64,000 nt of DNA, from contig NZ_JABCJJ010000003.1 of NCBI RefSeq assembly GCF_012952065.1, positions 124,001-188,000 on the forward strand, read 5' to 3'. Origin of the DNA: Cellulomonas fimi (GTDB taxonomy: Bacteria; Actinomycetota; Actinomycetes; Actinomycetales; Cellulomonadaceae). Shown piece after piece: positions 27,925-31,066 of this stretch. A program made the position numbers and the translations under genes. Numbering within the stretch: position 1 is the stretch's first letter; each line of letters starts with the position of its first letter. The notes beneath the pieces were generated by a model that saw only the letters and a list, made by a program, of their open reading frames with translations, did not search any database and was not told the DNA's origin.

Positions 27925-28112
27925 CGTCGGCGTCCGGGTCGTTCGGGTCCGACCCCGCGCCCTCGCGCCCGATCCGCACCGAGGTGCTTCGCGACCGGCT
28001 CGGGTCGACGGCGTGGGCCGACGCGAGCGGTTGCGTGCGACGCCGCGCAGGAGTCTGCTGGACGCGCCGTGCAACACGTCCGGGACCGGGCGACGACGTG
28101 GAGGGGTGGCTG

Positions 28113-30566
28113 ATGGGCACGACCGACCGCATCGCCGAGCCGTGGGGGACACGGACGCCGTACGGGGCCGGTTCGCCGTGGCCGACCCGGGTCGACACCT
28201 ACCTGGCCGCCGGCACGTCCGCGGAGGACGTCGAGCGCTGGGTGCAGACCGCCTCGATCCTGCACTCGAACGGTGACGCGCTGGACATCGCCGTGCGCGA
28301 CGGGCGGATGGTCGGGGTGCGCGGGCGAGCGGACGACCGGGTCAACCGCGGTCGGCTGGACCCGAAGGACGCGTTCGGCTGGCAGGCCAACGCGTCGGCC
28401 GACCGGCTCACGCGCCCACTGGTGCGCGAGGGCGGCCGGCTGGTCGAGACCGACTGGGACACGGCGATGAACCGGGTCGTCGGTACGACCCGGTCGCTCC
28501 TCGACACGCACGGGCCGAGCTCGATCGGCTTCTACACGACCGGCCAGCTGTTCGCGGAGGAGTACTACACGCTCGGTGTCATCGCGCACGGGGGCATCGG
28601 GACGAACCACGTCGACGGCAACACCCGCCTGTGCACCGCGACGGCGGCGGCCGCGCTCAAGGAGTCTTTCGGGTGCGACGGCCAACCGGGTTCCTACGAG
28701 GACGTCGACCACGCCGACGTCATCGCGCTCTTCGGGCACAACATGGCCGAGACGCAGGTGGTGCTGTGGGAGCGGGTGCTCGACCGGCTGGCCGGGCCGA
28801 ACCCGCCGCAGCTCGTCTGCGTGGACCCACGGGCCACGGAGGTCGCCCGCGCGGCGACCGTCCACCTCGCCCCGCGCCCGGGCACCAACCTGGCCCTGAT
28901 GAACGGACTGCTCCACGAGGTCGTCGCCAACGACTGGGTCGACCGCGCGTACGTCGACGCCCACACCGTCGGCTACGACGCCCTCGAGAAGGTCCTGCGC
29001 GACTACCCGGCGGAGAAGGTGGCGCAGATCTGCGACATCCCGGTCGAGGACCTCCGGGCTGCCGCGCGGATCGTGGGCCGGGCCGAACAGCTGCTGTGCA
29101 CCGTGCTGCAGGGCTTCTACCAGTCGCACCAGGCCACGGCCGCCGCGGTGCAGGTCAACAACCTCGTGCTGCTGCGCGGGATGCTCGGCCGGCCGGGCTG
29201 CGGCGTCCTGCAGATGAACGGCCAGCCCAGCGCCGAGAACACCCGCGAGTGCGGGGCCGACGGCGACCTCGCCGCCTTCCGCAACTGGGCCAATCCCGAC
29301 CACATCCGCGACCTGGCGCGTGTGTGGAACGTCGATCCGATGCACATCCCGCACTACTCACCGCCGACGCACGCGATGCAGATGATCCGCTACGTCGAGG
29401 ACGGCTCGATCCGGATGCTCTGGGTCACCGGCACCAACCCCGCGGTGTCGCTGCCCGAGCTGCGCCGGATCCGCGCGGTGCTGGGGCAGGACCGTCTCTT
29501 CCTCGTGGTCCAGGACCTCTTCCTGACGGAGACGGCCGAGTTCGCCGACGTCGTGCTCCCAGCGGCGACCTGGGGCGAGAAGACCGGCACCTTCACGAAT
29601 GCGGACCGCACCGTGCACCTGTCCGAGAAGGCGGTCGAACCGCCCGGCGAGTCGCGGCCCGATCTCGACATCCTGATCGACTTCGCGCACCGCCTCGGGC
29701 TGACCGACAAGGACGGCGGCCCGCTCGTGACGTGGCACGACGCCGAGTCGGCGTTCGAGGCATGGAAGGAGTGCTCACGCGGCCGGCCGTGCGACTACTC
29801 GGGGCTGACCTACGCGAAGCTGCGTGGCGGCAGCGGCATCCAGTGGCCGTGCACCGACGACGCGCCCACCGGTACCGACCGCCTCTACGCGGACGGAGCT
29901 TTCTTCGCGCACCCCGACTACTGCGAGCACTACGGCCGCGACCTGGTCACCGGCGCCCCGATGGAGCCCGGTGAGTACAAGGCGCTCAACCCGTCGGGCA
30001 AGGCGCTGCTGCGCGGCGCGGAGTACGTCACGCCGCACGAGATCCCGAGCGAGGACTTCCCGCTCCAGCTCATCACGGGCCGCACGCTCTACCAGTTCCA
30101 CACGCGCACCAAGACCGGCCGCGTGCCCCAGCTCCAGGCAGCGGCACCCGACGTCTGGGTCGAGGTCTCGCCGCAGGACGCCGAGATGCTCGGTCTGGCG
30201 GAGGGCGACCTCGCGGAGGTTCGCACGCCACGCGGTCGGGTCCGGGCCAAGGTGCGGGTCGGGGGCATCCGGCGCGGCGTCGTCTTCCTGCCGTTCCACT
30301 ACGGCTACTGGGACACCGAGGGCGGCTCGGGTCCCAGGGGCGCGGACGGCGGCAGGGCTGCGAACGAGCTGACGCTCACCGACTGGGACGCCGCGTCGAA
30401 GCAGCCGATCTTCAAGACCGCGGCGGCGTCGCTGCGCAAGGTGCGGGCGGGTGACGGGTCACCGGCCTCGGCTCCGACGACGACGGCGTCGGCCCCCGTC
30501 ACGGCCGGCGTCGCCCCGACCGTGGGTGGAGCGTCGGCGCTGGTGACCGAGCGGACCGGCCGCTGA
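28113..30566 (+). CDS. Molybdopterin-dependent oxidoreductase (nitrate reductase/formate dehydrogenase-like) lacking the N-terminal 4Fe-4S cysteines
   Basis: The 817-residue protein follows the assimilatory nitrate-reductase layout: molybdopterin core from about 95 (DRLTRPLVR), GFYTTGQLFAEEYY, NTRLCTATAAAALKESFG with probable molybdenum ligand Cys174, GKPGCGV-like GRPGCGVLQMNGQPSAENTR, ATWGEKTGTFTNADRTVHLS, and a C-terminal dinucleotide-binding domain (ITGRTLYQFHTRTKTGR). The usual CX2CX3CX27C Fe-S motif is present in spacing only: its four positions are Ser48, His51, Asp55 and Asp83. No signal peptide is seen. The ATG follows GAGGGG. It is paired with a small helical protein 17 bp downstream. 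The true substrate is unknown. Confidence 0.9.
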   Translation: MGTTDRIAEPWGTRTPYGAGSPWPTRVDTYLAAGTSAEDVERWVQTASILHSNGDALDIAVRDGRMVGVRGRADDRVNRGRLDPKDAFGWQANASADRLTRPLVREGGRLVETDWDTAMNRVVGTTRSLLDTHGPSSIGFYTTGQLFAEEYYTLGVIAHGGIGTNHVDGNTRLCTATAAAALKESFGCDGQPGSYEDVDHADVIALFGHNMAETQVVLWERVLDRLAGPNPPQLVCVDPRATEVARAATVHLAPRPGTNLALMNGLLHEVVANDWVDRAYVDAHTVGYDALEKVLRDYPAEKVAQICDIPVEDLRAAARIVGRAEQLLCTVLQGFYQSHQATAAAVQVNNLVLLRGMLGRPGCGVLQMNGQPSAENTRECGADGDLAAFRNWANPDHIRDLARVWNVDPMHIPHYSPPTHAMQMIRYVEDGSIRMLWVTGTNPAVSLPELRRIRAVLGQDRLFLVVQDLFLTETAEFADVVLPAATWGEKTGTFTNADRTVHLSEKAVEPPGESRPDLDILIDFAHRLGLTDKDGGPLVTWHDAESAFEAWKECSRGRPCDYSGLTYAKLRGGSGIQWPCTDDAPTGTDRLYADGAFFAHPDYCEHYGRDLVTGAPMEPGEYKALNPSGKALLRGAEYVTPHEIPSEDFPLQLITGRTLYQFHTRTKTGRVPQLQAAAPDVWVEVSPQDAEMLGLAEGDLAEVRTPRGRVRAKVRVGGIRRGVVFLPFHYGYWDTEGGSGPRGADGGRAANELTLTDWDAASKQPIFKTAAASLRKVRAGDGSPASAPTTTASAPVTAGVAPTVGGASALVTERTGR

Positions 30567-30583
30567 GCCAGAGGAGGGACGCG

Positions 30584-31066
30584 ATGAAGATCGGCCTGGT
30601 GCTGCGCGAGCTGCACCGCGCGGAGAACGACCTCGCGCACGACCTCCTGCAGGCGTCGGCGCGGCACGAGGTCGACCACGAGGTCTTCCACATCGCGCGC
30701 GACCTCGCGGTGTGGTCGCAACGGCACGTGCGCGAGATCGCGGCGCTCGCCCCGCGGTACGGCGAGGAGCTGGACCCCGAGCCCGAGGACGAGCTGAAAC
30801 TCTCCGCGCGGATCCGCGAGCGTGGCAGCGAGCTGGTCGGGCGTCGACCCGACGTCGGTATGCTGCTGCTGCGCGACCTGCGGAGCCTGCACCTCGCGGC
30901 GACCGGGGTCTCGGTGGACTGGGAGCTGCTCGGCCAGGCGGCACAGGGGCTCGAGGACCTCGAGCTGCTCGCACTCACCGAGCGCTGCCACCCCGACACC
31001 CTGCGTCAGGCGAAGTGGGCCAACGCGAAGCTCAAGGAGTCGGCCACCCAGGTGCTCGTCACCTGA
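30584..31066 (+). CDS. Small all-helical protein paired with the molybdopterin oxidoreductase
   Basis: I do not recognise a named family. The 160-residue protein is rich in Glu, Arg, Leu and His, has no membrane segment, and reads as amphipathic helices, with acidic and His residues arranged as in four-helix carriers: RELHRAENDLAHDLL, EVDHEVFHIARDLAVWSQRH. It might bind a metal or act as a maturation or electron-transfer partner (inference). AGGAGG at ideal spacing precedes the ATG, 17 bp after the oxidoreductase stop, so the two are almost certainly co-translated from one mRNA. Confidence 0.8.
   Translation: MKIGLVLRELHRAENDLAHDLLQASARHEVDHEVFHIARDLAVWSQRHVREIAALAPRYGEELDPEPEDELKLSARIRERGSELVGRRPDVGMLLLRDLRSLHLAATGVSVDWELLGQAAQGLEDLELLALTERCHPDTLRQAKWANAKLKESATQVLVT

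Follow-up and report, generated by a model that had tools for sequence, protein, structure and literature searches.

A Cys-free form of a Nap/Nas-branch molybdenum oxidoreductase in Cellulomonas fimi, with a conserved His/Asp/Asp set at the former FS0 cluster site and a partner of predicted ferritin-like fold

The window, the whole stretch of 64,000 nucleotides from Cellulomonas fimi that was analysed (contig NZ_JABCJJ010000003.1, positions 124,001 to 188,000), carries on its forward strand a gene for a Mo-bisMGD oxidoreductase of 817 amino acids (28113..30566), followed on the same strand by a gene for a partner protein of 160 amino acids (30584..31066). The original prediction of an intact frame with a good ribosome site is borne out: the 817 codons are uninterrupted and begin with ATG, and a ribosome-binding site, GGAGG (28100..28104, +), can be read 8 nt upstream; another, AGGAGG (30572..30577, +), belongs to the partner gene. 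The enzyme matches PF00384 (196 bits) and PF01568 (104 bits), both above the cut-off, whereas the Pfam search gave no match to the Fe4S4 domain PF04879, which does match Cys-bearing relatives. The closest solved structure by sequence is NapA from D. desulfuricans (HMMER, E 1e-108), and NapA (2nap) is also the best match of the predicted fold (Z 31.9, rmsd 3.1 over 655 aligned residues, 32% identity), in a structure model with a mean pLDDT of 71.8 whose residues 47-54 and 170-177 are poorly resolved. By its domains and predicted fold, the protein belongs to the Mo-bisMGD (DMSO reductase) superfamily. Among the NCBIfam models it scored under all cut-offs, including those of NasC (402 against 1100), NapA (318 against 904) and bisC_fam (TIGR00509; 120 against 1018), as it did with the AioA model (164 against 359); for formate dehydrogenase TIGR01591 it reached 448 against a cut-off of 666, yet formate dehydrogenase gave the top raw HMM score. 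No Tat leader was seen on the enzyme by eye.

In the HMMER alignment, S48 (28254..28256), H51 (28263..28265), D55 (28275..28277) and D83 (28359..28361, all on the + strand) fall on the four cluster cysteines of NapA, and both these residues and the CX2CX3CX27C spacing (48-51-55-83) had been read correctly in the original prediction. Codons 85-86 (28365..28370, +) encode Lys85, which is conserved, and Asp86. The position of Lys85 corresponds to Lys44 of FDH-H, between the cluster and Mo (PMC12176258).

The nearest 80 loci of the genome collection, at 70-78% identity and from many actinobacterial genera, have H51, D55, D86 and C174 without exception, and have S, T or A at position 48 and G or D at position 83. 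A wider search of about 990 genomes plus plasmids yielded 139 rows of this Cys-free form (D-form; 131 distinct) and 25 rows, some of them duplicates of one locus, of a form with C48/C51/C55 together with Gly83 and Gly86 (C-form), which is 42-64%, mostly 56-64%, identical to the window protein. The hosts of C-forms are Actinomycetota (including Curtobacterium), Deinococcus, Hymenobacter, Halomonas and, at the 42% end, Staphylococcus; for a copy in Gloeothece the alignment begins only at residue 81. The Staphylococcus member, a distant three-Cys protein on a plasmid of Staphylococcus saprophyticus (L137:3983-6406), has a C-terminal LysM domain, and its neighbourhood yielded no homologue of the partner. 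Public annotation calls the homologous enzymes mostly "nitrate reductase" and the partners "hypothetical protein".

H51, D55 and D86 are invariant in all 139 D-forms, and the codons behind them vary (His51 is CAC in 112 and CAT in 27; Asp55 is GAC in 124 and GAT in 15). This synonymous variation at 51, 55 and 86 indicates that the residues are held by selection, and the same H51 and D55 in 139 homologues rule out a sequencing error or private decay. Asp83, by contrast, is not a conserved replacement: the position is Gly in 97 and Asp in 42 of the D-forms, Gly in all C-forms and Cys in the four-Cys outgroup. On the D tree it has changed at least 22 times and position 48 at least 17 times, and this drift excludes Ser48 and Asp83 as needed ligands. 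A covariation between 48 and 83 (Fisher p 1e-6) was rejected, being not independent of phylogeny and resting on too few informative pairs.

Among all 817 columns, the only clean separators of the two forms are 51 (His in D-forms, Cys in 25/25 C-forms), 55 (Asp in D-forms, Cys in 25/25 C-forms) and 86 (Asp in D-forms, Gly in all C-forms), with position 48 (S, T or A against Cys) completing a separating set of four. Since 51, 55 and 86 separate the forms and 48 and 83 change often, the functional replacement is probably H51/D55/D86 beside the conserved Lys85 and not Ser/His/Asp/Asp; of the ligand set first proposed, His51 and Asp55 are conserved as anticipated, Ser48 and Asp83 drop out, and the invariant D86 has to be added. 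No other conserved Cys points to a hidden fourth ligand in the C-form, in which the widely conserved cysteines besides C174 (307, 554 and 560) are shared with the D-form. To judge from the alignment, the change between D- and C-form is confined to one site and leaves the Mo site unchanged. The broader claim, that the cluster ligands were replaced without decay, stands on the NapA alignment, the intact frame and the retention of the substitutions across a large clade, and the conserved replacement implies, as had been argued, a different electron path for the cluster-free enzyme.

For the trees, the motif columns were left out of the alignment and four-Cys relatives served as the root. In these rooted trees, C-forms are a paraphyletic grade, and D-forms, together with a small sublineage described below, are one clade (SH-aLRT 93 in the quick tree; UFB 90/SH-aLRT 95 in the mixture-model tree), a support that is good but not overwhelming, in trees with some long outgroup branches. 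Of 200 bootstrap trees for the mixture-model tree, not one had the C-forms as a monophyletic group. A C-form grade and a single D clade on a four-Cys root mean that the order was 4 Cys to 3 Cys to 0 Cys and that the Cys-free clade has a single origin, for which there is good support. Homologues with Cys at these positions, which the original prediction had associated with a private loss, do exist; however, they are this separate three-Cys grade, and the phylogeny places the Cys loss at the ancestor of a clade rather than in the window protein.

The sublineage (L171-L174, from one actinobacterial genus) has S48, G51, D or E at 55, D83 and E86, along with K85R and T175A. It has lost C174 in two of its four members, R378 (to Leu) in all four and much of the cofactor site, but its frame is still full-length, and a gene resembling that of the partner lies close by. 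It may be regarded as a Mo-dead offshoot, a candidate pseudo-molybdoenzyme. The change of H51 and D86 along with the loss of the Mo site suggests that the triad is tied to a working cofactor.

The probable Mo ligand, Cys174, is retained as had been expected: codons 174-175 (28632..28637, +) encode Cys174 and Thr175 at the positions of NapA Cys140 and Met141, and codon 378 (29244..29246, +) encodes an Arg aligned to NapA Arg354, with NapA residue numbers counted along the HMMER alignment. Every C- and D-form has C174, Thr175 and R378, and across the 139 D-forms the Mo ligand and the residues of the cofactor-binding and active sites show little or no variation. The formate dehydrogenase set of Sec/Cys-His and Arg is missing: the enzyme has Thr175 where formate dehydrogenases have His, and Asn at codon 369 (29217..29219, +), opposite the active-site Arg333 in FDH numbering. 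In keeping with this set of residues, the active site is NapA-like (C174, R378) and not formate dehydrogenase-like. FdhD (PF02634) is absent from the genome of the window, which is 99.97% complete and in which control models were positive; MoaA is present.

The substrate would be nitrate or a similar oxyanion, without a commitment to nitrate alone. The replacement of Met141 by Thr, together with the family-specific H209, N369 and R665, which are unlike nitrate reductases, means that the substrate may differ from nitrate. Genes for HPP proteins, one of which has been experimentally shown to transport nitrite (PMC4137279), lie directly downstream of the pair in several C-forms, including those of Curtobacterium, Deinococcus, Gloeothece and Halomonas, and in five D-forms that branch basally; HPP-adjoining loci span several phyla (L129, L134, L135, L136; L091, L092, L094, L095, L097). 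In one Deinococcus an FNT gene adjoins the pair. In the genome of the window, HPP is absent and the nirB model stays under its cut-off, leaving a nitrite product without an obvious local user. The same genome has a NarG-like gene, recognised by eye, on contig C18 (L083:289-3192), and the Cys-free enzyme is therefore not its sole candidate nitrate reductase.

In each of the 81 D-form loci looked at first, the enzyme gene is followed by the partner gene, as a rule with a 4-nt overlap, and most C-forms are accompanied by it too; among the 80 nearest loci no other conserved neighbour is widespread, and the larger clusters there look like antisense shadow ORFs. On a plasmid of Halomonas sp. KO116 (L136:3983-6808), enzyme and partner are a single 942-aa protein with the partner at the C-terminus. 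This fusion gene is followed by HPP and fdhD genes. A D-form fusion at another locus (L177) was given no weight, its linker looking like out-of-frame sequence. The linkage and the Halomonas fusion argue that the partner is a stable subunit rather than a transient chaperone. It belongs to no Pfam or NCBIfam family, with no Pfam match up to E 10 and none to PF07849 (DUF1641/ForE). Its predicted structure is a four-helix bundle (AlphaFold, pLDDT 90.7) that resembles bacterioferritin, Dps and YciE with Z 15-17 over the whole length, above the value of about 13 that helical bundles are said to reach commonly; with Foldseek alone, nothing came out at E < 0.001, and the Deinococcus partner has a faint likeness to DUF892, under the cut-off. 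By this predicted fold, the partner is a member of the ferritin-like superfamily. Its residues E14, H48, D98 and Q118 are strongly conserved, and the di-iron ExxH pair is not kept between the two forms.

Taken together, we hypothesize that the pair is a reductase of two subunits, located in the cytoplasm and belonging to the Nap/Nas branch of Mo-bisMGD enzymes, with nitrate or an oxyanion like it as substrate. Its ancestors would first have lost one ligand of the proximal cluster FS0, the fourth, and then, once, at the base of the actinobacterial clade, have exchanged the remaining three cysteines for S/T/A48, H51 and D55 and gained D86. FS0 is regarded as the entrance through which electrons reach Mo; for NarG and DmsA, its insertion is also a prerequisite for that of the Mo cofactor (PMC5123574). 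If the cluster is needed before the cofactor, as in NarG, a cluster-free clade needs a structural stand-in, and an invariant His/Asp/Asp set in exactly the former cluster loops is the natural candidate. H51, D55 and D86, with Lys85, would most likely form a polar or salt-bridge network that shapes these loops for uptake and retention of the Mo cofactor. Electrons would bypass FS0: a soluble reductant would deliver them straight to the Mo-pterin through the substrate funnel, or they would enter through the adjacent ferritin-like subunit. We infer the substrate class, the absence of a metal at the H51/D55/D86 site, the electron route and the role of the partner, and we regard the whole reading, an oxyanion reductase with a His/Asp/Asp network in place of the cluster and another way for electrons to reach Mo, as evenly poised between right and wrong.

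The main rival to this network is that H51, D55 and D86 bind a single Fe, Cu, Mn or Zn, structural or redox-active, in place of the cluster. Three invariant residues of ligand type at or beside the cluster positions, gained jointly and changed jointly in the Mo-dead offshoot, would fit such a site. However, the protein would supply three ligands only, the two positions that could complete the site, 48 and 83, drift freely, and the geometry is blurred in a low-confidence region of the model; we therefore consider a metal site unlikely. Its more specific version, in which a mononuclear metal at H51/D55/D86 relays electrons to Mo as an in-place swap that leaves the Mo site untouched, seems improbable to us. 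We are similarly doubtful that the enzyme has turned to a non-redox or internally balanced chemistry, such as hydration, hydroxyl transfer or O-atom exchange, that runs without external electrons. The electron wire is gone, and the superfamily has a non-redox member in acetylene hydratase (2e7z), which the predicted fold matches with Z 25.6; but acetylene hydratase retains its cluster, and Mo-site residues identical to those of the Cys-bearing C-form suggest that the chemistry is unchanged and uses an electron donor. Nor is it probable that the partner, through a di-iron or other redox centre, takes over from FS0 in passing electrons to Mo. Its ferritin-like fold, its four strongly conserved residues and its presence at nearly every locus, fused in Halomonas, would suit a relay, whereas the Cys-bearing C-forms have the partner too, which argues that it did not evolve to replace FS0, and the ExxH pair differs between forms. 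A pseudoenzyme without Mo cofactor, serving as scaffold or sensor, is a course that L171-L174 show the family can take, but it is very improbable for the D-forms at large, given their near-invariant Mo site and the MoaA of the window's genome.

The proposed cluster-free reductase can be set against several known systems. It is like NapA and NasA/NasC in its fold, its Mo-Cys, its equivalent of Arg354 and the Lys beside FS0, and unlike them in lacking the four FS0 cysteines, in having Thr for Met141 and in its extra ferritin-like partner. With the C-form it shares the active site and usually the partner gene; however, the C-form has C48/C51/C55, Gly83, Gly86 and a PF04879 match. Cluster-free members of the superfamily are already known, namely the type III DMSO reductases (DorA, TorA, BisC), which likewise have no FS0 ligands and are the precedent for Mo-bisMGD enzymes without FS0. 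Their Mo ligand is Ser, whereas the window enzyme has Cys174 and belongs to another branch. The three-Cys cluster site of arsenite oxidase AioA, which holds a [3Fe-4S] cluster, is a model for the C-form but not for the D-form, which has no cluster Cys at all. Formate dehydrogenases (FdhF/Fdh-alpha) are alike in fold, with the differences at Thr175 and Asn369 given above. The nearest known architecture is ForCE of B. subtilis, in which the activity of a Mo subunit depends on a small partner that carries no cofactor and is encoded by the adjacent gene; this partner, ForE, is a DUF1641 protein that links to menaquinone, and ForC has five Fe-S clusters (PMC8808070). The partner in the window, by contrast, has no DUF1641 match.

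No description of the Cys-free family was found in the open-licence literature, nor of the 4-3-0 series within the Nap/Nas branch, its invariant replacement or the unnamed partner. The clade of Cys-free enzymes occurs in many soil actinobacteria. It completes a natural series of four, three and zero cysteines in which D- and C-forms consistently differ at only four columns, and which makes the role of FS0, and its possible substitutes, directly testable. The enzyme is predicted to be an iron-sparing and possibly oxygen-tolerant Mo reductase, and its partner would found a new protein family that has so far been annotated as "hypothetical protein".
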